Source: Bacillus sp. AZ43
GTDB taxonomy: Bacteria > Actinomycetota > Actinomycetes > Mycobacteriales > Geodermatophilaceae
NCBI GenBank assembly: GCA_004570425.1
Contig: SPQJ01000013.1
Coordinates: forward strand, 1 to 64,000
Reading direction: 5' to 3'
DNA: 64,000 nucleotides
Shown here: in pieces, positions 52,770-64,000 of the stretch
How positions within the stretch are numbered: the stretch's first letter is position 1
Layout: each line of letters begins with the position of its first letter
Made by a program: the position numbers and the translations under genes
The notes under the pieces: generated by a model
Told to the model about the DNA's origin: nothing
Databases searched by the model: none
Seen by the model: the letters and a program-made list of their open reading frames with translations, nothing else

Positions 52770-52789
52770 CCGGTCATTCGATCACGCCG

Positions 52790-53398
52790 TCACAGGCCAA
52801 AGCCCGCGCGGTCGACCTTGCGGTGGTAGCGCTCGCCGAGCTTCCCGCCCAGCACCGCGCCGAGCAGGGTTGCCAGCAGGACGGCGACCAGCGCGATGAT
52901 CCCGCCGGTGGTGGCGGTGCCCTCGTCGATCGGGATGCGCGGCAGGTTCAGCTGCTGCAGCACGTTGTACTGCGACCCGAACAGCAGGCCGAGGCCCGCC
53001 AGGACCAGGACGACGAGCAGCCCGATGACCCAGACGGCGATGCCCTGCCGGATGCCGTCGAAGCGCGCCATCCGGCCGGCCACGTACCCGCCGGCGAAGT
53101 AGGCGAGGAACAGGACCACCAGCAGCACGATGCCGCCGACGACGCCGATCGTCTCGGCCTCCTGGGCGGCCTCGTCGGTCGAGGACACCCCCTGGGTGAG
53201 GCCGATCGCCACCCCGGCCGCGCTCAGCAGCGCCACCAGCAGCACGGCCAGACCGTTCGCCGAGAGCCAGCCGAAGAAGGCCGCCCCCCACTTGATGCCG
53301 CCGTAGCGGGACCGCTGGGCGTCGATCGCGTCGCGGGCGGCGCCCCTCGTCGAGGACGCGCCCTCCGCGCGGGAGACGGGGGAGTCGGAGGTGGACAT
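52790..53398 (-). CDS. Four-helix membrane protein (YrzE/TIGR04086-like)
   Basis: 202 residues. Cytoplasmic N-terminus, then helices at about 45-65, 85-110, 118-140 and 165-188, two of them Gly-rich: VVLFLAYFAGGYVAGRMARF and LLATLLGAVLGGKLGERYHR. The YVAGRMAR segment resembles YrzE/TIGR04086 proteins. ATG 53398 has GAGGAGA at good distance. Divergent from nasA over 168 bases. Function unknown. Confidence 0.7.
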   Translation of the reverse strand: MSTSDSPVSRAEGASSTRGAARDAIDAQRSRYGGIKWGAAFFGWLSANGLAVLLVALLSAAGVAIGLTQGVSSTDEAAQEAETIGVVGGIVLLVVLFLAYFAGGYVAGRMARFDGIRQGIAVWVIGLLVVLVLAGLGLLFGSQYNVLQQLNLPRIPIDEGTATTGGIIALVAVLLATLLGAVLGGKLGERYHRKVDRAGFGL

Positions 53399-53494
53399 CG
53401 GGTTCTCCTCGCCGAGGGCCGACGTGGTTGCCGGCGTCCGGGGAATGCCCCGGATGATCGCGCGGCAACCACCGCACAACCGGTGCCGATGCCC

Positions 53495-53522
53495 GGTGAG
53501 GCAGACGGAACGCAGCGTTGAC
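53495..53522 (+). promoter_or_regulatory. GlnR-type box upstream of nasA
   Basis: GTGAG-N6-GGAAC-N6-TTGAC, close to the actinobacterial GlnR pattern of GTnAC and GaAAC half-sites at 11-base steps. GGTGAGGCAGACGGAAC (53495-53511) differs at only two bases from the box before narK, and both end 56 bases before the start codon. Confidence 0.7.
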
Positions 53523-53566
53523 GCCGGTGCCCACGCGGGGAAATGCCGGCAACGCACGCTCGTCCC

Positions 53567-56155
53567 GTGCCCGCCGCCACGGTTCCCGAGTCCCCGCTCC
53601 GGGGTGCCGGCGCGTCGCGCACGACGGCGACCCACTGCCCCTACTGCTCCCTGCAGTGCGGGATGACGGTGACCGCCGGCGCGCGCCCGGCCACCCTGGT
53701 CCCGGCCGACTTCCCGACCAACCGGGGCGGCCTGTGCTCGAAGGGGTGGTCGTCCACCGAGCTGCTCGACCATCCCGAGCGGCTGCTCCGCCCGCTGGTC
53801 CGCGCCACTCCCGGCGACCGCACCAGCCCGCTGGTCGAGGCCACCTGGGACGACGCGCTCGGCCGGCTGGTCGACGCCATCGAGCGCACCCAGGCCCGTC
53901 ACGGCCGCGACGCCGTGGGCTGCTTCGGCGGTGGCTCCCTCACCAACGAGCAGGCCTACCAGTTCGGCAAGTTCGCCCGCGTCGCGCTCCGCACCAGCGC
54001 CATCGACTACAACGGCCGCTTCTGCATGTCGTCCGCGGCCGGCGCCGCGAACCGGGCGTTCGGCCTCGACCGGGGGATGCCCTTCCCGCTCTCCGACATC
54101 GCCGAGGCCGACGTCGTGGTCCTGGTCGGCAGCAACCCGGCCGACACGATGCCGCCGGCCATGCAGTGGTTCGACGCCGGCCGCGAGCGCGGCGCCCAGC
54201 ACGTCGTCGTCGACCCGCGACGCACCGCGACCGCCCGCAACGCCGCCCTGCACCTGCAGCCCCTGCCCGGCACGGACCTGGCGCTGGCCAACGGGCTGCT
54301 GCACATCGCGCTGGCCGAGGGCCTGGTCGACGAGGCCTACGTCGCCGCGCGCACCACCGGCTTCGACGAGGTGAGGGCGGGGGTCGCTGCCTACTGGCCC
54401 GACCGGGTGGAGCGGATCACCGGTGTCCCGGTCGCCGACCAGCGACGCACCGTCTTCGCCCTGGCCCGTGCCGGGAAGGCCATCGTCCTCACCGCCCGCG
54501 GCGCCGAGCAGCACCGCAGCGGCACCGACACCGCGCAGGCGTGGATCAACCTCGCCCTGGCGCTCGGGCTGCCGGGCCGGCCGGGCAGCGGCTGGGGCAC
54601 GGTCACCGGCCAGGGCAACGGGCAGGGCGGCCGCGAGCACGGGCAGAAGGCCGACCAGCTGCCCGGCTACCGGTCCCTGTCGGACCCCGGCGCCCGCGCG
54701 CACGTCGCCGCGGTCTGGGGCGTCGACCCCGACGACCTCCCCCTGCCGGGCAAGAGCGCTTTCGAGCTGCTCGACGCCCTGGGCACCGACGGCGGCGTGC
54801 GCACGCTCCTGGTCCTCGCCTCCAACGTCGCCGTCAGCGCGCCGGATGCCAGAAGGGTCATCAGCCGGCTGCGCGACCTCGACTTCCTGGCCGTCAGCGA
54901 CTTCTTCCTCTCCGAGACCGCCGAGCTCGCCGACGTCGTCCTCCCCAGCGCCATGTGGGCGGAGGAGGAGGGCACGATGACCAATCTCGAGGGCCGGGTC
55001 ATCCGCCGACGGCGGGCGCTCGACCCGCCGGGCGGCGTCCCCGACGACCTGCAGCTGCTCGCCACGCTCGCCGAGCGGCTCGGCGCCGGCCGCCACTTCA
55101 GCGGCGACCCCGAGACCGTCTTCGAGGAGCTGCGCCGGGCCAGCGCCGGGGGAGCGGCCGACTACTCCGGCATCAGCTACCGGCGGATCGACGACGAGCA
55201 GGGCGTCTTCTGGCCCTGCCCCGCCGACGACCACCCCGGCACGCCCCGGCTGTTCACCGAGCGGTTCGCCACCCCCGACGGCCGGGCGCGGTTCGTCCGG
55301 GTCGAGCACGTCGACGCGCACGAGCGGCCCGACGCCGACTACCCCTACGTGCTCACCACCGGCCGGGTGCTGGCGCAGTACCAGTCGGGCACGCAGACCC
55401 GCCGCACCCGCAGCCTGCACCTGATCGCGCCCACACCCCGGGCCGAGATCCACCCCGACCTGGCCCGCCGGCTGGGCGTCGACCAGGACGACGTGGTCGA
55501 GCTGGCCACCCGCCGCGGCCGGGCCCGCTTCCACGCGCTGGTCACCGACGCCGTGCGGCCCGACGTCGTCTTCGCGCCCTTCCACTGGGGCGGCGGGTCC
55601 AGCGCCAACGCGCTCACCGACGCCGACGCGCTCGACCCCACGTCGAGGATGCCCGCCTTCAAGGTCTGCGCGGTCGCCGTCGCCCGCGCCGGCGGGCCCG
55701 AGGAGCTCATCGCCCCGCCCCCGGCGGCCGGTCAGCCGCAGCCCCGCGACCGCACGCCGAACGCCGCCCCCGCACCGCGCCACCCCACCCGGAAGAGGAG
55801 CACCCGCGTGAAGAGCAGCCCACGCTTCCTGCAAGGCGTCTTCCCGATCGCCGGAGAAGGCCTGGCCAAGCCCGGGCCGCTCGACGCCGCCCTGCGCTAC
55901 ACCGTGCCGCAGGGGAGGTCCGCGCAGGCGCTGTACTTCCGCGGCGGCAACTCGACGGCCGAGCTGGTCTACGTCCTGCTCGTCCGCGACGGGGAGCCGA
56001 TGCGCTGGTTCCCGATCGGCGCGAAGGGCGACGTCCACGTGCCGCTGCGCGTGGTCGAGGACCTGGTGGGCGGCACCGTCGTCGAGCTGCACGCCGCCGC
56101 CCCCGAGGGCGTCACCGGCGAGCTGGTCGTCGACCTCGGGCTGGTGGAGGTCTGA
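53567..56155 (+). CDS. nasA: Assimilatory nitrate reductase catalytic subunit with C-terminal accessory-like extension
   Basis: Molybdopterin (MGD) oxidoreductase reducing nitrate to nitrite for assimilation. 862 residues. N-terminal [4Fe-4S] cysteines: HCPYCSLQCGM and GGLCSKGW; MGD-binding segments include CFGGGSLTNEQAYQFGKF, SNPADTMPPAMQWF and FAPFHWGGGSSANALTD. No flavin or extra 2Fe-2S domain. GTG 53567 has CACGCT at -12 to -7; ATG 53543 is the alternative. A Pro/Ala/Arg linker after ~residue 715 leads, without a stop, into a 115-residue module from 55808. TGATG links it to nirB. Confidence 0.88.
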   Translation: MPAATVPESPLRGAGASRTTATHCPYCSLQCGMTVTAGARPATLVPADFPTNRGGLCSKGWSSTELLDHPERLLRPLVRATPGDRTSPLVEATWDDALGRLVDAIERTQARHGRDAVGCFGGGSLTNEQAYQFGKFARVALRTSAIDYNGRFCMSSAAGAANRAFGLDRGMPFPLSDIAEADVVVLVGSNPADTMPPAMQWFDAGRERGAQHVVVDPRRTATARNAALHLQPLPGTDLALANGLLHIALAEGLVDEAYVAARTTGFDEVRAGVAAYWPDRVERITGVPVADQRRTVFALARAGKAIVLTARGAEQHRSGTDTAQAWINLALALGLPGRPGSGWGTVTGQGNGQGGREHGQKADQLPGYRSLSDPGARAHVAAVWGVDPDDLPLPGKSAFELLDALGTDGGVRTLLVLASNVAVSAPDARRVISRLRDLDFLAVSDFFLSETAELADVVLPSAMWAEEEGTMTNLEGRVIRRRRALDPPGGVPDDLQLLATLAERLGAGRHFSGDPETVFEELRRASAGGAADYSGISYRRIDDEQGVFWPCPADDHPGTPRLFTERFATPDGRARFVRVEHVDAHERPDADYPYVLTTGRVLAQYQSGTQTRRTRSLHLIAPTPRAEIHPDLARRLGVDQDDVVELATRRGRARFHALVTDAVRPDVVFAPFHWGGGSSANALTDADALDPTSRMPAFKVCAVAVARAGGPEELIAPPPAAGQPQPRDRTPNAAPAPRHPTRKRSTRVKSSPRFLQGVFPIAGEGLAKPGPLDAALRYTVPQGRSAQALYFRGGNSTAELVYVLLVRDGEPMRWFPIGAKGDVHVPLRVVEDLVGGTVVELHAAAPEGVTGELVVDLGLVEV
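55808..56155 (+). other. Internal start candidate: small accessory-like protein in frame with nasA
   Basis: AAGAGGAG lies eight bases before GTG 55808, in the nasA frame, giving a 115-residue product: it begins with KSSPRFLQGVFPIAGEG, continues YTVPQGRSAQALYFRGGNST and MRWFPIGAKGDVHVPLRVVE and ends VVDLGLVEV. I recall similar stand-alone small proteins next to actinobacterial nitrate reductases. Either a separate cistron has lost the upstream stop and become fused, or both long and short forms are made. Confidence 0.5.
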
Positions 56156-58683
56156 TGACAGCCGTCCTGGGCGGGCGGCCGACCGGCCTCACCGCACTGC
56201 ACGTGGACGACGACCTGGACACCCGCGGCCGCCTGGTCGTGGTGGGCAACGGCATGGCCGGCGCCCGCTTCGTCGAGGAGGTGCTCGAACGGGGCGGCGG
56301 CGACCAGTTCCGCATCACCGTCTTCGGCGACGAGCCGCACGGCAACTACAACCGGATCATGCTGTCGCCGGTCCTGGCCGGGGAGGAGCACGAGGACGAC
56401 ATCGTCCTCAACAGCCACGACTGGTACGCCGACAACGGGATCGACCTGCGCGCGGGCGTGCGCGTCGAGCGGATCGACACCGCGGCCAAGGTGGTGCACG
56501 CCGCCGACGGCAGCGCCACCCCCTACGACCACCTGGTGCTCGCGACCGGGAGCTACTCGTTCATCCCGCCGATGACCGGGATCCGCACCGAGGCCGGCGA
56601 CCTGCTGCCGGGCGTCTACGGCTTCCGCACCATCGACGAGACCCGCGCGCTGCTCGCCGAGGCGGGCAGCTGCCGGCGAGCCGTCGTGATGGGCGGTGGC
56701 CTGCTGGGGCTGGAAGCGGCCCGCGCGCTGCAGGGCCACGGGCTGCAGGTCGACCTGGTGCACGCCATGCCGTACCTGATGAACGCCCAGCTCGACGCGG
56801 AGGCCGGCGCGATCCTGAAGCGGAGCGTCGAGCAGCTCGGGATCACCGTGCACCTCGACGTCCTCGCCACCGAGGTCGTCGGCACCGACCGGGTCGAGGC
56901 CGTCGTCCTCACGGACGGCCGGCGCATCGACACCGACCTGCTGGTCGTCGCCGCCGGGGTGCGCCCGCACACCGACGTCGCCGTCCGCTCGGGGCTGGAG
57001 GTGGAGCGGGCGATCGTCGTCGACGACCAGCTGCGCACCGACGACCCGGACGTCTACGCCATCGGCGAGTGCGCCCAGCACCGCGGCGAGGTGTACGGGC
57101 TGGTCGCGCCCGCCTGGGAGCACGCGAAGGTCCTCGCCGACGTCCTCACCGGCACCCACCCCGACGCCGAGTACCACGGCAGCCGGACGGCGACGAAGCT
57201 CAAGGTCGCCGGCGTGGACGTCGCCGTCATGGGGATCAGCACCCCGGAGCGGGACGAGGACGAGTTCCTGGTCATCTCCGAGCCCAAGCGCGGCGTGCAC
57301 CTGTCGGTGGTCATCCGCGACGACGTGCTGGTCGGGGCCACGCTGCTCGGTGACACCCGCAAGGTCGCCTTCCTCACCCAGGCCTTCGACCGCGGTGCCC
57401 CGCTGCCGGAGGAGCGCATCCGGCTGCTCGTCGACCTCTCCGACGGGGCGGAGGAGGTCGGCGTCGCGGACATGCCGGCCGACTCCCAGGTCTGCAACTG
57501 CAACGGTGTGTCGAAGGGCGACATCTGCGGCGCGGTGGCCGGTGGCTGCGGCAGCGTCGGCGAGGTCATGGACCGCACCCGCGCCGGCAAGGGCTGCGGC
57601 TCCTGCAAGTCGCTGGTCAAGCAGATCGTCGAGTGGGCCGCCGAGGGCGAGCTCGCCGACGACCCCGCCGCCTCGTACTACGTGCCGGGCATCCCGATGA
57701 CCAAGCCCGAGCTCATGGCCGCCATCCGCGAGCGCGACCTGCGCAGCGTGTCGGCCGTCTTCGCCGCCCTCGCGCCCGGCGGCAAGGACGACGCGAAGTC
57801 GAAGATGGGCCTGACCTCGCTGCTCAAGATGATGTGGGGCTCCGACCACGTGCCGGAGAAGGACGCCGAGTTCGTCAACGACCGGGTCCACGGCAACATC
57901 CAGCGCGACGGCACGTTCTCCGTCGTCCCGCAGATGAAGGGCGGCGTGACCACGCCCGCCCAGCTGCGCCGGATCGCCGAGGTGGCGGAGAAGTACGAGG
58001 TCCCGATGGTGAAGGTGACCGGCGGCCAGCGGATCGACCTGCTCGGCGTCCGCAAGGAGGACCTGCCGGCCATGTGGAACGACCTCGGCATGCCGTCGGG
58101 GTACGCCTACGGCAAGAGCTTCCGCACCGTGAAGACCTGCGTGGGCTCGGACTTCTGCCGGTTCGGGCTCGGTGACTCCACGCAGCTCGGCATCGACCTC
58201 GAGACCCGGTTCCAGGGCATCGAGAGCCCGGCGAAGATGAAGCTCGCCGTCGTCGGCTGCCCGCGCAACTGCGCCGAGGCCTACGTGAAGGACGTCGGCG
58301 TCGTCGCCGTCGGCAACGGCAAGTGGGAGGTCTACGTCGGCGGTGCTGCCGGCGCGACCGTCCGCAAGGGCGACCTGCTCGCCACCGTCGACTCCCCGGA
58401 GGCGGTGCTCGAGCTCGCCGGCCGCTTCATGCAGTACTACCGGGAGAACGCCAACTGGCTCGAGCGCACCTACGACTTCGTGCCCCGCGTCGGACTGGAG
58501 AAGCTCAAGCACGTCCTGCTGGAGGACGGCGAGGGCATCTGCGCCGACCTGGACGCCGGGATCCAGCGGTCGATCGACGCCTACCGCGATCCGTGGGGGC
58601 AGGACGCGAACGAACCGGCCACACCGGGCCAGTTCCGCCCGTCCCTCCCGCTGATCGCGCTGCCGAAGGTGCCGGTCCGATGA
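56155..58683 (+). CDS. nirB: Assimilatory nitrite reductase, NAD(P)H large subunit
   Basis: Reduces nitrite to ammonium. 842 residues, standard NirB order: FAD/NAD(P) pyridine-nucleotide reductase (LVVVGNGMAGARFVEE; VVMGGGLLGLEAARAL), a BFD-type [2Fe-2S] domain (VCNCNGVSKGDIC and GKGCGSCK), then sulfite/nitrite reductase halves with siroheme-[4Fe-4S] cysteines in TCVGSDFCRFGLGD and VGCPRNCAEAYVKD. ATG 56155 overlaps the nasA stop by one base and its own stop overlaps nirD by four, so nasA-nirB-nirD form one coupled operon. Confidence 0.96.
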   Translation: MTAVLGGRPTGLTALHVDDDLDTRGRLVVVGNGMAGARFVEEVLERGGGDQFRITVFGDEPHGNYNRIMLSPVLAGEEHEDDIVLNSHDWYADNGIDLRAGVRVERIDTAAKVVHAADGSATPYDHLVLATGSYSFIPPMTGIRTEAGDLLPGVYGFRTIDETRALLAEAGSCRRAVVMGGGLLGLEAARALQGHGLQVDLVHAMPYLMNAQLDAEAGAILKRSVEQLGITVHLDVLATEVVGTDRVEAVVLTDGRRIDTDLLVVAAGVRPHTDVAVRSGLEVERAIVVDDQLRTDDPDVYAIGECAQHRGEVYGLVAPAWEHAKVLADVLTGTHPDAEYHGSRTATKLKVAGVDVAVMGISTPERDEDEFLVISEPKRGVHLSVVIRDDVLVGATLLGDTRKVAFLTQAFDRGAPLPEERIRLLVDLSDGAEEVGVADMPADSQVCNCNGVSKGDICGAVAGGCGSVGEVMDRTRAGKGCGSCKSLVKQIVEWAAEGELADDPAASYYVPGIPMTKPELMAAIRERDLRSVSAVFAALAPGGKDDAKSKMGLTSLLKMMWGSDHVPEKDAEFVNDRVHGNIQRDGTFSVVPQMKGGVTTPAQLRRIAEVAEKYEVPMVKVTGGQRIDLLGVRKEDLPAMWNDLGMPSGYAYGKSFRTVKTCVGSDFCRFGLGDSTQLGIDLETRFQGIESPAKMKLAVVGCPRNCAEAYVKDVGVVAVGNGKWEVYVGGAAGATVRKGDLLATVDSPEAVLELAGRFMQYYRENANWLERTYDFVPRVGLEKLKHVLLEDGEGICADLDAGIQRSIDAYRDPWGQDANEPATPGQFRPSLPLIALPKVPVR

Positions 58684-59033
58684 GCGTCACCGACGTGGCG
58701 ACGACGACCGGCGTCGTCGTGGGGCGGGTCGACGACGTCCCGCCGGGGGAGGGGCGGACCTTCGTCGCCGACGGCGTCCAGGTCGCCGTCTTCCGGCTCC
58801 GCGACGGGTCGCTGCACGCCACGCAGGCCGCCTGCCCGCACGCCGGCGGGCCGCTGGCCGACGGGCAGACCGACGTCGACGTCCTGGTCTGCCCGCTGCA
58901 CCAGTACGCCTACCGGTGGACCGACGGCACCTCGACCGACGGGGCCCCGCCGATCCGTCTCTTCCCGGTGCGGGAGGTCGACGGGGCCCTCGTGGTCGAG
59001 GTCCAGCCGCCGGTCAGGCGAACTCGTAGGTGA
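58680..59033 (+). CDS. nirD: Nitrite reductase small subunit, Rieske type
   Basis: 117 residues. A Rieske fold with both cluster-ligand pairs present: CPHAGGPLADGQ and VCPLHQYAYRW (C-x-H and C-x2-H). Classical E. coli NirD has lost these ligands, so this subunit probably carries a [2Fe-2S] centre and may pass electrons to NirB. ATG 58680 overlaps the nirB stop by four bases; the 3' end overlaps the convergent DUF4333 gene by 20 bases. Confidence 0.9.
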   Translation: MSVTDVATTTGVVVGRVDDVPPGEGRTFVADGVQVAVFRLRDGSLHATQAACPHAGGPLADGQTDVDVLVCPLHQYAYRWTDGTSTDGAPPIRLFPVREVDGALVVEVQPPVRRTRR

Positions 59034-59643
59034 CCTCGCCGCTCTCGTCCACGGTGGCGACGACCTCGACGGTGTCGGTCGCGTCCGCGGCGTTGTCCAC
59101 GAAGCACGTGATCGGTGTCCCGACGGCGTCGACGAGGACGGACCGGCCGTCGGTGTCGCAGGTGCTGATGACCGCCACGCCGGCCAGCGCGCCCACCTGC
59201 TCGTCCAGCGACGCCTCGACGACGTCGACGTAGACGAACTCGTTGTCGCCGTCGATCTGGACGTTCCCCTCGTCGTCGGTCTGCCTGACGGTGAAGGAGA
59301 CGGGCTGGTCCTCCAGGGACGCGGTGCAGGAGAACGTCCCCCCGGACTCGGCCTCGACGTCCGTCGGGCACGAGACGTCCTCGGGTGCGACGCCGGTCTC
59401 CTCGGCGGTCACGCGGCTGATCTCGGCCTCGACGTCCGCGGTGTCCAGGGTCTTCGCGCCGAACAGCAGGACCGCGCCGACGACGAGCCCGCCGAGCACC
59501 ACGAGCCCGGCGACGATCGAGGCGACGACGATCCCGGTCCGGCCGCGGCGCGGGCGGCCCTGGGGGACCGGCGGGGGGCCGTAGGCGGGGGGCGGGCCGT
59601 ACTGCGGGCCGGGGGGCGGGGTGGGGTAGGTCTGCTGGGTCAT
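59014..59643 (-). CDS. DUF4333 membrane-anchored protein
   Basis: 209 residues: a Pro/Gly/Tyr-rich cytoplasmic N-terminus (PPPGPQYGPPPAYGPPP), one transmembrane helix (about 38-62), then an extracytoplasmic region with the DUF4333 pattern VSCPTDVEAESGGTFSCTAS and a second cysteine pair (STCDTDG, PITCFVDNA). The DUF4333 fold is repeated twice in outline. ATG 59643 has GAGGAG. Three phased ACTTG repeats lie 59-84 bases upstream. Function unknown. Confidence 0.8.
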   Translation of the reverse strand: MTQQTYPTPPPGPQYGPPPAYGPPPVPQGRPRRGRTGIVVASIVAGLVVLGGLVVGAVLLFGAKTLDTADVEAEISRVTAEETGVAPEDVSCPTDVEAESGGTFSCTASLEDQPVSFTVRQTDDEGNVQIDGDNEFVYVDVVEASLDEQVGALAGVAVISTCDTDGRSVLVDAVGTPITCFVDNAADATDTVEVVATVDESGEVTYEFA

Positions 59644-59701
59644 CGGTGTGCTCCTCGTCGGGTGGGTCGCGGACGACCATGACGGGAGTCGCTTCCGGAT
59701 G

Positions 59702-59727
59702 ACTTGGATGCACTTGGGGCGGACTTG
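59702..59727. promoter_or_regulatory. Three phased ACTTG direct repeats
   Basis: ACTTG at 59702, 59712 and 59723 (10- and 11-base steps), upstream of the minus-strand DUF4333 gene. One-turn spacing is typical of OmpR/PhoP-type response-regulator sites; the binder is unknown. Confidence 0.4.
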
Positions 59728-59736
59728 AGCCCGGCC

Positions 59737-60192
59737 TCACGGGTGCATGCGGGAGCCCTTCACCACCTTGTCGACGGCGTTCTTCGGCCCGTGCAGCGCG
59801 ATCCCCACCAGGTCCAGGTCGGCGCCGCGGACGGCCCGGACGGCGGCGCGGTTCTCCGCGTCACCGCCGGTGGTGAACAGGTCGGCCGTGAACAGGGCGG
59901 TCGGCAGGCCGCGCTCCAGCGCGCGGCGCCGCACGGTCGCGAGCACGTCGCCGGGAGCGGTGAGCACGAGCACCGGCTGGCGGAACATCGCCAGATACCG
60001 GGTGCCGTCGGCGTCCTCGTACGGGCGGCCGACCAGCTCGGGGACCGCGGCGGCGATCGCGCTGCCGAGGAACGCGGTGACGTTGAGCTCCTGCCAGGGG
60101 AGCAGGCCCTCCCGCAGCACGACGGCGATCTTCGTGGGCCACGGCGGGCCCACCTCCTCGGACTGATCGGTCAGCAGCGGCGTCGTCTCCAT
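59737..60192 (-). CDS. DUF2000 family protein
   Basis: 151 residues matching the DUF2000 outline: TKIAVVLREGLLPWQELNVT, AFLGSAIAA with the central P-Y-x-DADG region, and C-terminal DLDLVGIALHGPKNAVDKVV. Small alpha/beta proteins of unknown role, often beside AraC regulators. Here the AraC gene is divergent with 50 bases between starts, so it is the probable regulator. ATG 60192. Confidence 0.85.
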   Translation of the reverse strand: METTPLLTDQSEEVGPPWPTKIAVVLREGLLPWQELNVTAFLGSAIAAAVPELVGRPYEDADGTRYLAMFRQPVLVLTAPGDVLATVRRRALERGLPTALFTADLFTTGGDAENRAAVRAVRGADLDLVGIALHGPKNAVDKVVKGSRMHP

Positions 60193-60230
60193 GGCGCCCA
60201 GCGTGCTCCCGCGGGAACGCGCGCTTCTTG

Positions 60231-60236
60231 TACGTT
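60231..60236 (+). promoter_or_regulatory. -10 element of the araC-type gene (leaderless)
   Basis: TACGTT, first base 12 bases before GTG 60243. Confidence 0.5.
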
Positions 60237-60242
60237 CCTGAC

Positions 60243-61049
60243 GTGACCGCTCCGGCGCCGCACGGGGAGAAGGTGCGGGCCTGGCGCCCGCCGGTGCCGG
60301 GGCTCGCCGAGGTGTTCCACGCCCGGTTCACCGACCACGTCTACCCGCCGCACACGCACGACACCTGGACCCTGCTGCTGGTCGACGACGGCGCGGTCCG
60401 CTACGACCTGGACCGGCACGCCCACGGTGCCGACCCCGCCGCGGTGACCCTGCTCCCGCCGGGGGTGCCGCACGACGGGCGGTCCCGGTTCCCCGGCGGC
60501 TTCCGCAAGCGCGTGATCTACCTGGACCCGGGGACGCTCGGCACGGAGCGGATCGGCACGGCGGTCGACCGACCCGCGTTCGGTGACCGGTTGCTGCGCA
60601 CCCGCATCGACCGGCTGCACACCGCGCTCGCCCCGCACACCGAGCTGCTCGAGGCGGAGAGCCGGCTGGCGTTCGTGCTCGAGCGCCTGCGGCAGCACCT
60701 CGACCGCGAGATCACCGCCGCCCCGGAGGCCCGGGACGACGCACTGGCCGACCGGCTGCGCGATCTGCTCGACGCGCGGGTGGTCGAGGGCGTCTCGCTG
60801 GAGGAGACGGCAGCGGAGTTCGGCGTCCACCCCACCCACCTGGTACGCGCCTTCGGTCGCGCCCACGGCCTGCCGCCGCACCGCTACCTGGTGGGCCGGC
60901 GGATCGACCGTGCCCGCTCCCTCCTGCTCGACGGCATGCCCCCGGCGGAGGTGGCGACGGCGGCCGGCTTCTACGACCAGGCCCACCTGACCCGGCACTT
61001 CCGCAGGCTGCTCGGCACCACGCCGGCGGCCTACGCCCGCTCGACCTGA
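60243..61049 (+). CDS. AraC-family transcriptional regulator
   Basis: 268 residues. N-terminal cupin ligand domain: YPPHTHDTWTLLLVDDGAV and LLPPGVPHDGRS. C-terminal double HTH: VSLEETAAEFGVHPTHLVRA and EVATAAGFYDQAHLTRHFRR, ending LLGTTPAAYARS. GTG 60243 is preferred over the upstream 60228 start because of TACGTT at -12 to -7. It probably controls the divergent DUF2000 gene; this AraC-DUF2000 pairing is common. Confidence 0.9.
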   Translation: MTAPAPHGEKVRAWRPPVPGLAEVFHARFTDHVYPPHTHDTWTLLLVDDGAVRYDLDRHAHGADPAAVTLLPPGVPHDGRSRFPGGFRKRVIYLDPGTLGTERIGTAVDRPAFGDRLLRTRIDRLHTALAPHTELLEAESRLAFVLERLRQHLDREITAAPEARDDALADRLRDLLDARVVEGVSLEETAAEFGVHPTHLVRAFGRAHGLPPHRYLVGRRIDRARSLLLDGMPPAEVATAAGFYDQAHLTRHFRRLLGTTPAAYARST

Positions 61050-61051
61050 GG

Positions 61052-61471
61052 TCAGGGCGCCGGGACGACGACGGTCGCCTCGTGCGGTCCGCCGCACTCC
61101 TCGGACCCGCCGACGCGTCGCCAGTCCAGCTCGGCGTCGACCTCGGTGAGCACGGACCCGTCGGGGCCGATCACGCGGACGGTGGCGGAGCCGGGGGTGG
61201 ACATGTCGAGGAGGCCGGTCGCGGGGGAGCCCGACGCGGGGTCGACCGTCGCGGCCCCGGGGTCCACCAGCACCGGCCGGTAGCACTGCGGGACGCACTC
61301 GAGGGTGACCCCGCCCTCGACCGACGGCCAGCCGTCGGCGAACTCGACGACCAGCGCGTTGCTCCAGCCGATGGCCGGGCACGTGGTGCCGCCGCCGCCC
61401 GCGCAGGAGGCCAGTGCCAGGACGGCGGCGAGCAGGCAGCCCACCGCAGGCGCCGAGACGGGGGGCCTCAC
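61052..61471 (-). CDS. Hypothetical lipoprotein
   Basis: 139 residues with a signal peptide and lipobox ALASC; further cysteines at TCPAIGW, LECVPQCYRP and EECGGPH suggest disulfides in a small extracytoplasmic beta domain. No family recognised. GTG 61471 overlaps the stop of a 54-residue gene (GTGA), so the two form an operon. It converges on the AraC gene with a 2-base gap. Confidence 0.7.
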   Translation of the reverse strand: MRPPVSAPAVGCLLAAVLALASCAGGGGTTCPAIGWSNALVVEFADGWPSVEGGVTLECVPQCYRPVLVDPGAATVDPASGSPATGLLDMSTPGSATVRVIGPDGSVLTEVDAELDWRRVGGSEECGGPHEATVVVPAP

Positions 61472-61632
61472 TCGACGGGTTCGCTCTCCACGGTCAGCGG
61501 GGGCGGGACGATCAGCGGACGACGACGCCGGCGCAGGTCGGACAGGAGCCGGCGGCGGTGGGCCTCCTCGGCCAGCTGGCGGGCAGCGATCAGCGACGCG
61601 CTCTCCGCCGTGCGGCCGTAGCTCTCGAGCAC
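61468..61632 (-). CDS. 54-residue basic small protein
   Basis: Begins MLESYGRTAESASLIAARQL and continues as an Arg-rich amphipathic helix (EEAHRRRLLSDLRRRRRP), then a Pro-rich end (LIVPPPLTVESEPVE). GTG 61632 has GGGAGCCAGGA directly upstream as a ribosome site. The stop overlaps the lipoprotein start by four bases, strong evidence that it is a real gene. No family recognised; the basic helix could bind nucleic acid or membrane. Confidence 0.6.
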   Translation of the reverse strand: MLESYGRTAESASLIAARQLAEEAHRRRLLSDLRRRRRPLIVPPPLTVESEPVE

Positions 61633-61732
61633 TCCTGGCTCCCCTCGCCGTCCCCTCGACTGATAGACGCGTCGAGGGGCCGGAAAGGATGACAGCCGGA
61701 GGACACGAATCGGTAACGATCCGAGCCGTTGA

Positions 61733-62536
61733 TCAGGACGAGTGCAGCCCGAGGTCGGCGAGGGCAGCCGCGACGGCGTCGGCGTGCAGCAGGTCGAGCG
61801 CCAGCAGGCGGTGCACCAGGACCCCGCGCCGGGTCAGCCGCAGGTCGGCGGCGCGCAGCCGGGGGAGGGTCGCGCGCGGCCGGGAGATCACCGGCGCCGG
61901 GTCGAGCAGACCGGCGCGTTGCAGGTCGCCGACGTCCTGGCGGGCGCCCCAGGCGGTCCAGGTCCGCGGCTCGTCCTCGAGCGGATCCATGGGCAGCGGC
62001 GCGCGATCCCGGCGGCCGACCCCGGCCACCAGGGCGAGCTGCCGCCAGCTCAGCGACTCGGCCAGGCGCAGCGCGCGCCCGGCGAGCTCGAGGTCGATGT
62101 CGGGGGAGAGGGACACCTCGGCGAGCAGGTAGCCCAGGTGGCGCACCCGGCGCTCGTCGGTGGACCGGCGGGCCGCGGTCACGACCGCCTCGGCGAGCTC
62201 GTCGGCCGCCGCCCGGCTGCCGGGGCGGGGCTCGAACCAGCCGTCGTCGCGGGCCCCGCGGCCGTTCCGGTGCTGGGTGGCCGCGTACTCGACGGCGAAC
62301 GCCAGGGCGGCCCCGGCGCGGACGCTCTCGCGCGGCACCGGCACGTCGGCCGCCTCGTCGGCGACGGCGCGCAGGCAGGCGGCGAGCCGGTCGCTCACCT
62401 GAACCGCCGCAGCCGTCGGTTCGAAGACGACGGTGGCCGCGGCCCGGCACATCGACCCGGCGACCGGGCTGCCGGCCTCGATGAGGGCGCGGCCCGTCAG
62501 CTGGTCGTCGGCACGGGCCTGCTCGGATGCGGTCAC
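61733..62536 (-). CDS. Hypothetical protein, helical, 267 residues
   Basis: Mostly alpha-helical and soluble; no signal peptide. Recognisable only as a conserved-looking actinobacterial protein: segments such as RRVRHLGYLLAEVSLSPDID and SWRQLALVAGVGR near the middle, and a winged-helix-like C-terminus (LRAADLRLTRRGVLVHRLL). GTG 62536 has GAAGAT at -12 to -7. It is divergent from narK over 145 bases that hold a GlnR-type box, so shared nitrogen control is possible. Function unknown. Confidence 0.65.
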   Translation of the reverse strand: MTASEQARADDQLTGRALIEAGSPVAGSMCRAAATVVFEPTAAAVQVSDRLAACLRAVADEAADVPVPRESVRAGAALAFAVEYAATQHRNGRGARDDGWFEPRPGSRAAADELAEAVVTAARRSTDERRVRHLGYLLAEVSLSPDIDLELAGRALRLAESLSWRQLALVAGVGRRDRAPLPMDPLEDEPRTWTAWGARQDVGDLQRAGLLDPAPVISRPRATLPRLRAADLRLTRRGVLVHRLLALDLLHADAVAAALADLGLHSS

Positions 62537-62609
62537 CCGGTGATCTTCGTCGGTTCCCGCGCCCGACTGCACGCCGGGCGCCGGCCCCTCACCACAGCGG
62601 GGCAGCCGC

Positions 62610-62626
62610 GGTGAGGGAAACGGAAC
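62610..62626 (+). promoter_or_regulatory. GlnR-type box upstream of narK
   Basis: GGTGAGGGAAACGGAAC; GTGAG-N6-GGAAC half-sites as before nasA, two mismatches in 17, ending 56 bases before ATG 62682. It overlaps the dyad CGGAAC-ACGG-GTTCCG (62621-62636). Confidence 0.65.
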
Positions 62627-62681
62627 ACGGGTTCCGCCTCGGGGCGACGCCGGCGTTACCCGCTGTTGGGACCGTCCTCGC

Positions 62682-64000
62682 ATGGCCGCCCCCACCCGCC
62701 CCGCCCAGACGTCGATGTCGCAGAACACCGTCGCCGCGCCGCCACCGCTGACGCGGGGTCGGGGCGGGAAGTGGATCGACGACTGGCGTCCGGAGGATCC
62801 GCAGTTCTGGGAGGAGACCGGGAAGACGGTCGCCCGCCGCAACCTGTTCTTCTCGGTGTTCTCCGAGCACATCGGCTTCTCGATCTGGAGCCTGTGGTCG
62901 GTGCTGGTGCTCTTCCTCCCGGAGGCGGTGTACGGCATCGACCCGGCCGGGAAGTTCCTGCTGACGACGCTGCCGACGGCGCTGGGCGCGTTCGTGCGGC
63001 TGCCCTACACCTTCGCCGTCGCCACGTTCGGCGGCCGCAACTGGACGATCGTCAGCGCGGCCCTGCTGCTGGTGCCCACCGTGGCCACCGCGATCGTGCT
63101 CGAGCCCGGCGTCTCGTTCACGACGCTGCTGGTGGTGTCGTGCCTGGCCGGCGTCGGGGGCGGCAACTTCGCCAGTTCGATGGCGAACATCAACGCGTTC
63201 TACCCCGACCGGCTCAAGGGCTGGGCGCTCGGGCTCAACGCCGGCGGCGGCAACCTCGGCGTCCCCGTGGTCCAGCTCGTCGGCCTGCTGGTGCTCGCGA
63301 CGGTCGGGGCCGAGCATCCGCGGGTGATCCTGTTCGCCTACCTCCCGCTGATCGTCGTCGCCGCCGTCGGCGCGGCCCTGGTCATGGACAACCTGACGAC
63401 GGCGCGCAACCAGCCGCGGGCCATGCGCGAGGCGACCCGCGAGCCGCACACCTGGATCATGTCCTTCCTCTACATCGGGACGTTCGGCTCGTTCATCGGC
63501 TTCGGGTTCGCCTTCGGGCAGGTGCTGCAGAACCAGTTCACCGAGTCGTTCGCGACGCCACTGGCCGCCGCCTCGCTCACCTGGCTCGGGCCGCTGCTCG
63601 GCTCGCTGATCCGGCCGTTCGGCGGCTCGCTGGCCGACCGGTTCGGCGGCGCCCGGATCACCCGCTGGAACTTCGTCGCGATGGCCGTGGGGGCGTCGGT
63701 CGTCTGGACGGCGAGCCAGCTGGAGTCGCTGCCGCTGTTCGTCGTCGGCTTCGTCTCGCTCTTCGTGCTCAGCGGCCTCGGGAACGGGTCGACCTACAAG
63801 ATGATCCCGGCGATCTTCCGGTCGCAGGCACTGCAGCAGGTGGCCGAGGGCGGGGACGCCGAGGCGGCCGATCGGCGGGCGCTGCGGATGTCCGGCGCCC
63901 TCATCGGCATCGCCGGCGCCGTCGGGGCGTTCGGCGGGGTGCTGGTGAACCTGGCGTTCCGGCAGTCGTTCATGACCACCGGCACCGGCGACTCCGCCTA
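62682..64000 (+). CDS. narK: Nitrate/nitrite MFS transporter NarK (3' partial)
   Basis: At least 439 residues, cut by the window end. After a hydrophilic N-terminus comes WRPEDPQFWEETGKTVARRN, then MFS helices with the two nitrate signatures: GVGGGNFASSMANINAFYP and, in the second half, GLGNGSTYKMIPAIF; LNAGGGNLGVPVVQLV is also typical. Imports nitrate (or exchanges it for nitrite) for the NasA-NirBD pathway encoded 4 kb upstream. ATG 62682 has GACCGT at -12 to -7; ATG 62715 is possible. A GlnR-like box suggests nitrogen control together with nasA. Confidence 0.93.
   Translation, partial: MAAPTRPAQTSMSQNTVAAPPPLTRGRGGKWIDDWRPEDPQFWEETGKTVARRNLFFSVFSEHIGFSIWSLWSVLVLFLPEAVYGIDPAGKFLLTTLPTALGAFVRLPYTFAVATFGGRNWTIVSAALLLVPTVATAIVLEPGVSFTTLLVVSCLAGVGGGNFASSMANINAFYPDRLKGWALGLNAGGGNLGVPVVQLVGLLVLATVGAEHPRVILFAYLPLIVVAAVGAALVMDNLTTARNQPRAMREATREPHTWIMSFLYIGTFGSFIGFGFAFGQVLQNQFTESFATPLAAASLTWLGPLLGSLIRPFGGSLADRFGGARITRWNFVAMAVGASVVWTASQLESLPLFVVGFVSLFVLSGLGNGSTYKMIPAIFRSQALQQVAEGGDAEAADRRALRMSGALIGIAGAVGAFGGVLVNLAFRQSFMTTGTGDSA

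Follow-up and report, generated by a model that had tools for sequence, protein, structure and literature searches.

Joint control of nitrate genes by the regulators NnaR and GlnR has been described in mycobacteria and in Streptomyces (statements on published systems follow the accessible parts of the papers cited). In Streptomyces coelicolor, narK, nirB, nirA and nasA are co-regulated by NnaR and GlnR (Amin et al. 2012, cited in PMC10704036). The NnaR palindrome has been given as cTCAC(a/c)-16N-(t/g)GTGAg, lying near GlnR motifs at a fairly conserved spacing and accompanied by leaderless features (PMC6277429); in Mycobacterium abscessus it reads CTCAC...GTGAG, and NnaR sites are predicted at 63 bp from the start of narK3 and 66 bp from that of nasN, upstream in each case (PMC11162112). 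GlnR half-sites are reported to require an A at the fourth position (review, PMC10704036), and in M. smegmatis the GlnR consensus is Gn2AC-n6-GnAAC, in which the conserved adenines are critical (PMC3662644). In the S. coelicolor amtB promoter the a2 half-site, which occupies the classical -35 position, is not needed, in contrast to the essential b2, and a contact between GlnR and sigma has been put forward as a proposal (PMC5826061). How GlnR sites are placed relative to genes has appeared irregular: in M. smegmatis nearness to the gene start showed no correlation (PMC3662644), and in M. tuberculosis the position of the GlnR site, the transcript start and the effect followed no obvious pattern (PMC4950008).

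We analysed a window of 64,000 nucleotides, bases 1-64000 of contig C10 in a genome of 4,064,414 bases and 78 contigs. A preliminary description had proposed that two similar 17-mers in this window, GGTGAGGCAGACGGAAC at 53495-53511 upstream of nasA and GGTGAGGGAAACGGAAC at 62610-62626 upstream of narK, are GlnR boxes of one regulon. Re-reading the coordinates places both where they had been reported, and re-measurement gives the claimed 56 bases from the last base of each box to GTG 53567 and to ATG 62682; the nAnnnT hexamers do lie at -12 to -7, and TTGAC is in phase at nasA. Unseen at that stage were an upstream palindrome half at each gene and more phased pentamers, which run down to 53544 at nasA and 62659 at narK (Table 1). 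We assign a probability of roughly 0.86 to the reading that, as known from mycobacteria and Streptomyces, NnaR and GlnR would together activate nasA-nirB-nirD and narK. The label of GlnR box stands for the downstream pentamers, which are phased at 11 bases, but not for GTGAG, the predicted right half of an NnaR palindrome; half of the proposed GlnR box is thereby reassigned to NnaR. This type of switch is already known; here it is found in another bacterial family and with a strict geometry. A literature search for Geodermatophil and GlnR together gave nothing related by title.

Table 1. Genes and promoter elements of the nasA and narK loci (window coordinates; roles of the promoter elements are predicted).
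Feature	Coordinates	Strand	Evidence
nasA, assimilatory nitrate reductase catalytic subunit	53567..56155	+	Best model NF047855, 773 bits, below cut-off 1100; Pfam molybdopterin domains
nirB, nitrite reductase large subunit	56155..58683	+	TIGR02374 842 bits, cut-off 578 (query with one extra leading codon)
nirD-like Rieske protein	58680..59033	+	PF00355 and PF13806 over cut-off
narK, nitrate/nitrite MFS transporter	62682..64000, past window edge	+	Window part: TIGR00886 294.7 bits (cut-off 311.7), PF07690
Predicted NnaR palindrome left half, nasA, CGCAC	53473..53477	+	18 bases before GTGAG; [CT][TG]CAC at 18 in 50/54
Predicted NnaR palindrome right half, nasA slot 1, GTGAG	53496..53500	+	GTGAG 51, GTGCG 3 of 54
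Predicted GlnR half-site, nasA slot 2, GGAAC	53507..53511	+	4th base A 54/54; consensus PMC10704036, PMC3662644 (accessible parts)
Predicted GlnR half-site, nasA slot 3, TTGAC	53518..53522	+	4th base A 54/54
Predicted promoter-proximal GlnR half-site, nasA slot 5, GAAAT	53540..53544	+	GNNAC in 52/54; 10 bases before -10
-10 hexamer, nasA, CACGCT	53555..53560	+	nAnnnT at this GTGAG offset 54/54
Predicted NnaR palindrome left half, narK, CTCAC	62588..62592	+	18 bases before GTGAG; CTCAC 40/40
Predicted NnaR palindrome right half, narK slot 1, GTGAG	62611..62615	+	GTGAG 34, GTGCG 6 of 40
GlnR-type half-site, narK slot 2, GGAAC	62622..62626	+	Five bases identical 40/40
Predicted GlnR half-site, narK slot 4, GCGAC	62644..62648	+	4th base A 39/40
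Predicted promoter-proximal GlnR half-site, narK slot 5, GTTAC	62655..62659	+	4th base A 39/40; 10 before -10
-10 hexamer, narK, GACCGT	62670..62675	+	nAnnnT at this offset 39/40

Counted from the G of GTGAG as position 0, the shared layout comprises C(T/G)CAC at -23 to -19, GTG(A/C)G at 0 (slot 1), pentamers on an 11-base grid at 11, 22, 33 and 44 (slots 2 to 5), a hexamer nAnnnT at 59-64 and a start codon at 70-73. Grid and -10 hexamer hold their offset from GTGAG in 54/54 nasA and 39/40 narK loci of the family, and the left palindrome half holds its own in 50/54 and 40/40. The pentamers used at nasA are those at 11 (GGAAC), 22 (TTGAC) and 44 (mostly GAAAC); narK uses those at 11 (GGAAC), 33 (GCGAC or GCAAC) and 44 (GAAAC and variants). 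This choice is mirrored in the fourth-position A, which is found at nasA in all 54 loci for each of slots 2, 3 and 5 and in none for slot 4, and at narK in 40, 39 and 39 of 40 loci for slots 2, 4 and 5 and in none for slot 3. Weak half-sites in the window are GAAAT in slot 5 and GCCCA in slot 4 of nasA, and TCCGC in slot 3 of narK.

The anatomy of these sites, their conservation and their uniqueness in the genome are directly observed. Our orthologue set, drawn from 76 family genomes, held 56 nasA loci (at least 80% identity) and 41 narK loci (at least 79%), with short pieces of narK in G041 and G055 and one of nasA in G051 excluded. A script found the array in 54 of these 56 nasA and 40 of these 41 narK orthologues, counting the nasA loci of G028 and G058, in which TGCAC replaces GGAAC, as boxed. 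The missing nasA locus of G064 (L068) begins near a contig end, and the box is present in another stretch. One nasA-narK pair, at C2:26767-31802 of G065, is boxless at both genes (L155 and L149, both rows dropped); the same genome also has a boxed nasA on its contig C155. We then searched with R1, a 92-column sequence model made from the nasA and narK promoter regions. When the best 150 of 15,130 first-look candidates in the 4.06 Mb of the genome were fully scored, two strong matches were obtained, at 60.7 bits (4.7e-16) and 58.5 bits (2.2e-15), and the retention of the array in the family supports the claim of a regulon shared by nasA and narK. The third-best match (20.1 bits, E 0.002, C7:55496-55553) lies inside an open frame, mog-like when read by eye, and was rejected as a third composite site. 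The genome's own glnA, amtB and nnaR are absent among the 28 R1 matches listed for it. Across the family, R1 reaches E 1e-11 or better in 57 of the 76 genomes.

Both candidate regulators are encoded in the genome. A 391-aa frame at C10:64673-65845 on the minus strand, 0.7 kb past the right edge of the window, is nnaR; its protein combines HEM4 and Trans_reg_C domains and matches PRK07239 at 485 bits (cut-off 273). GlnR is L186, on contig C36, with matches to the PDB entries 8hih (1.8e-86) and 8hig (6e-83), which we take to be GlnR, and to 4o1h (3e-31), named 'Transcription regulator GlnR'. A strong nnaR match occurs in all 57 genomes with the composite promoter (R1 at E 1e-11 or better) and in 10 of the 19 without it; the Fisher p for this co-occurrence is 6.5e-7, but the nine nnaR-less genomes come from only three genera and so are not independent. 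Two of those 10 genomes, G022 and G045, both without a nasA or narK composite promoter, have nnaR matches (G022:C1:4025026-4025922 and G045:C257:1367-2185) that reach only to residue 303-304 and so fall short of the DNA-binding domain. The presence of nnaR in 10/19 composite-less genomes and the boxless nasA-narK pair of G065 count against joint activation by NnaR and GlnR, as do the weak half-sites of the window and the scarcity of the palindrome at nasA in other families (below).

GlnR-type boxes also precede the genome's own glnA (GTTAC-N6-GAAAC-N6-GATAC-N6-GCAAC-N10-TAGCTT) and amtB (TTCAC-N6-GAAAC-N6-GCGAC-N7-GAAAC-N10-CACCGT), and together with the presence of GlnR itself they bear out the suggested involvement of this regulator. 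A box before glnR, expected along with those of glnA and amtB, did not materialize: within 300 bases upstream of the genome's own glnR we found neither a GlnR-type pair nor the core. The amtB frame TTCAC-N6-GAAAC-N18-GAAAC-N10-CAC(C/G)GT recurs in 30/30 family loci, although the intervening GCGAC is not kept. Upstream of nnaR, GNNAC-N6-GNNAC-N10-nAnnnT occurs in 27/30 collected loci, as against 0.016 expected per 260-base stretch. At glnA, amtB and nnaR the a-type position is filled by TTCAC, GACAC, GTCAC or GTTAC, and these boxes are without GTGAG.

The preliminary description had taken GTGAG-N6-GGAAC for a single GlnR a-b box, so that GlnR alone would activate nasA and narK. GTGAG does share the 11-base grid of the downstream GlnR half-sites, and GlnR is present in the genome, but we consider this explanation quite improbable. 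GTGAG has AG where GlnR needs AC, and it satisfies neither the fourth-A rule nor Gn2AC. Slot 1 is GTGAG or GTGCG in 94/94 loci, with C as its fourth base in 9/94, in contrast to slot 2, where the fourth base is A in 94/94. Moreover, GTGAG pairs with an upstream [CT][TG]CAC at exactly 18 bases in 90/94 loci; this spacing of 18 (1+16+1) is a sharp peak among the spacings 8-28 and is found at 50/54 nasA and 40/40 narK loci. The two halves vary at the mirrored base, the left being CGCAC in 39/54 nasA loci and the right GTGCG in 9/94; other nasA left halves are TGCAC (5) and CTAAC (3). Neither GTG(A/C)G-N6-GNNAC nor the N18 palindrome occurs before amtB (0/30), nnaR (0/30) or the genome's own glnA. 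On the grounds of slot-1 variation, the palindrome partner and this absence, GTGAG was rejected as a GlnR a-site; its sequence identifies it as the predicted right half of an NnaR palindrome of the form already in print, C(T/G)CAC-N18-GTG(A/C)G.

A different possibility is that the pentamers are used mainly by another regulator of the OmpR/PhoB family, MtrA or PhoP, competing with GlnR or replacing it. The motif of MtrA is almost the same as that of GlnR, and in other actinobacteria competition by MtrA or PhoP takes place at nitrogen promoters (PMC6277429, PMC11162112); the present genome has seven Trans_reg_C matches above 90 bits, one of them GlnR, and sequence alone cannot separate GlnR sites from MtrA or PhoP sites. 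The same geometry is found at amtB, nnaR and glnA, known GlnR targets elsewhere, which argues against this explanation and leaves it very unlikely. That the two promoters resemble each other by chance or common ancestry, with no function, we regard as close to negligible. The 17-mer itself could suggest it: GGTGAG-N4-ACGGAAC has only these two exact copies in the whole genome, but there are 12 further places with one mismatch and 124 with up to two (versus 21 for a reversed-pattern control), and because near-matches are so numerous the 17-mer alone is modest evidence. Nor is the core rare in the window, where GTGAG-N6-GGAAC with up to one mismatch is found 3 times (4.5 expected) and CKCAC-N18-GTGMG also 3 times (1.1 expected; 12/100 shuffles reach 3). 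What speaks against chance is the conservation of the array in the family together with the matches of the R1 model: over 94 loci, invariant bases are separated by variable spacers, and nnaR, amtB and a second type of narK repeat the layout with spacers that differ.

If NnaR and GlnR do act together, each site would be a composite, activator-dependent promoter, with an NnaR dimer (HemD domain plus OmpR-type DNA-binding domain) on C(T/G)CAC-N18-GTGAG and GlnR protomers arranged head-to-tail on the phased pentamers directly downstream of the palindrome. Slot 4 falls at the -35 position and slot 5 exactly 10 bases upstream of nAnnnT, and the proximal GlnR pair would cover the place of the -35. 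Nitrogen limitation, signalled by GlnR, may raise NnaR through the GlnR-type sites before nnaR, a feed-forward loop in which NnaR and GlnR together would switch on nitrate uptake and reduction. We infer protein binding, activation, cooperativity and transcript starts at these promoters from their sequence. The repeat layout is like that of E. coli PhoB promoters, also of the OmpR/PhoB family, in which pho boxes, direct repeats with an 11-base period, replace the -35 about 10 bases before the -10; those promoters differ in answering to phosphate and in having no NnaR partner. By analogy with PhoB, and with the proposal made for S. coelicolor amtB (PMC5826061), activation might proceed through sigma.

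The closest likeness is to the NnaR-GlnR promoters of M. smegmatis and M. abscessus (PMC6277429, PMC11162112), which likewise control nitrate/nitrite genes and have the same CTCAC-N18-GTGAG, followed by a GlnR site whose spacing varies little, as well as leaderless features. Their site lies some 66 bases ahead of the start; in the present genome GTGAG and the start codon are 66 bases apart at nasA and narK alike. Control of nnaR by GlnR, which we predict from its upstream sites, is likewise in common with the mycobacterial and S. coelicolor systems. The present loci differ from those systems in that most left halves at nasA read CGCAC, nasA, nirB and nirD lie in a single cluster, the array has five phased positions, and the evidence comes entirely from sequence. 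Slots 4 and 5 fit a2 and b2 of S. coelicolor amtB, a promoter with three GlnR boxes for which the accessible text mentions no NnaR palindrome and gives no distance from b2 to the -10 (PMC5826061). The nas promoter of Amycolatopsis mediterranei, where a1-b1-b2 are needed, a2 is not, and 16 bp lie between b1 and b2, is alike in having GlnR half-sites before the nas operon and a non-essential a2 slot, and unlike in that the accessible part of the review mentions no NnaR palindrome for it (PMC10704036).

The equal 56-base spacing of the two boxes had been read as independent support for both starts. The equality is true at these two genes and the starts are supported, but the figure is partly coincidence: the distance from box to start is 56, 57 and 58 bases in 23, 29 and 2 of the 54 nasA loci, and 55, 56, 57 and 58 bases in 1, 20, 11 and 8 of the 40 narK loci, with equal distances in 18 of the 39 genomes having both. 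With a range of 55-58 over the family, an invariant 56-base spacing is rejected. The invariant is instead the distance from box to -10, because the N10 core recurs while the start floats. GNNAC-N10-nAnnnT is found in 52/54 nasA and 36/40 narK loci when anchored to the grid, and in 28/30 nnaR, 30/30 amtB and 1/1 own glnA upstream regions by search. In a scan of spacings 4-24, 10 comes out on top for nasA and amtB, and 21, the next grid slot, lies slightly above 10 for narK (40 vs 37) and nnaR (28 vs 27). The nasA of this genome, with GAAAT in slot 5, has no strict GNNAC-N10 match. Among 17 nasA upstream regions from outside the family (the final 19 in a set of 80 records, minus two from the family), 11 have GNNAC-N10-nAnnnT and 10 have it with ATG or GTG 4-9 bases further; the NnaR palindrome is present in only 4/17, at spacing 17 or 18. 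A second NarK type (narK-2, about 47% identical) has CTCAC-N18-GTGCG and GAAAC-N10-TAGCGT in 3/3 loci read of 14 (L229, L230 and L231, from G063, G032 and G006), with its ATG much further downstream, after a long leader.

We lean slightly towards the view that GlnR-activated promoters of the family, and probably of many actinobacteria, set the proximal half-site exactly 10 bases before the -10 (GNNAC-N10-nAnnnT), irrespective of the sites upstream (GlnR in or out of phase, NnaR) or the position of the start codon. If so, GlnR would stand in for the -35 contact, and the spacing would help to separate activated from other GlnR targets. We found no statement of it in the accessible, open-access GlnR and NnaR literature that we searched, though it is partly anticipated, since placement at the -35 is already in print for S. 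coelicolor amtB (PMC5826061). The rule is simple and open to test on other GlnR targets, for which previous work had found no pattern of position (PMC4950008, PMC3662644).

The family comparison supports both start codons and also the leaderless placement of the -10: the start codon lies 56-58 bases after the box in 54/54 nasA loci, and an ATG lies 55-58 bases after it in 40/40 narK loci. The -10 hexamer lies 5-8 bases before the start codon in 54/54 nasA and 39/40 narK loci; Shine-Dalgarno-like 4-mers occur in 3/54 and 0/40, and the three overlap the -10. The nasA and narK transcripts are, on this pattern, probably leaderless, starting at 53567 and 62682; in the proposed mechanism, transcription of nasA-nirB-nirD and of narK would start at the GTG or ATG or one to two bases from it. 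An in-frame ATG at 53543, within slot 5, arises from a C-to-T change (GAAAC to GAAAT). It was rejected as the nasA start, as it owes its existence solely to the reading of GAAAC as GAAAT in this genome; gene calling that prefers ATG would pick it, inside a predicted GlnR half-site. G049 also has GAAAT, yet no in-frame ATG, and its nasA start lies at 57. Downstream, the nirB ATG at 56155 overlaps the nasA stop by one base (TGATG). Divergent frames on the minus strand flank both promoters, at 52782-53399 on the nasA side (205 aa) and 61733-62539 on the narK side (268 aa), and neither has a Pfam or NCBIfam match at 0.001.

Some R1 matches in the family fall outside intact loci. Among the weak ones, those in G022 and G047 were inspected and assigned to no gene, and another, in G041, adjoins a narK fragment; of the others below 30 bits, inspection covered a minority. 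The strong matches in G035 and G055 lie at decayed nas loci. In G055 (L233, C18:27300-32400), relic composite promoters, one of them partial, lie with remnants of nitrate genes next to an adjoining nnaR match. In G035 (L228, C27:54700-58700, around 580-800), nasA is decayed, with only its first codons NasA-like, and its promoter is nearly intact.
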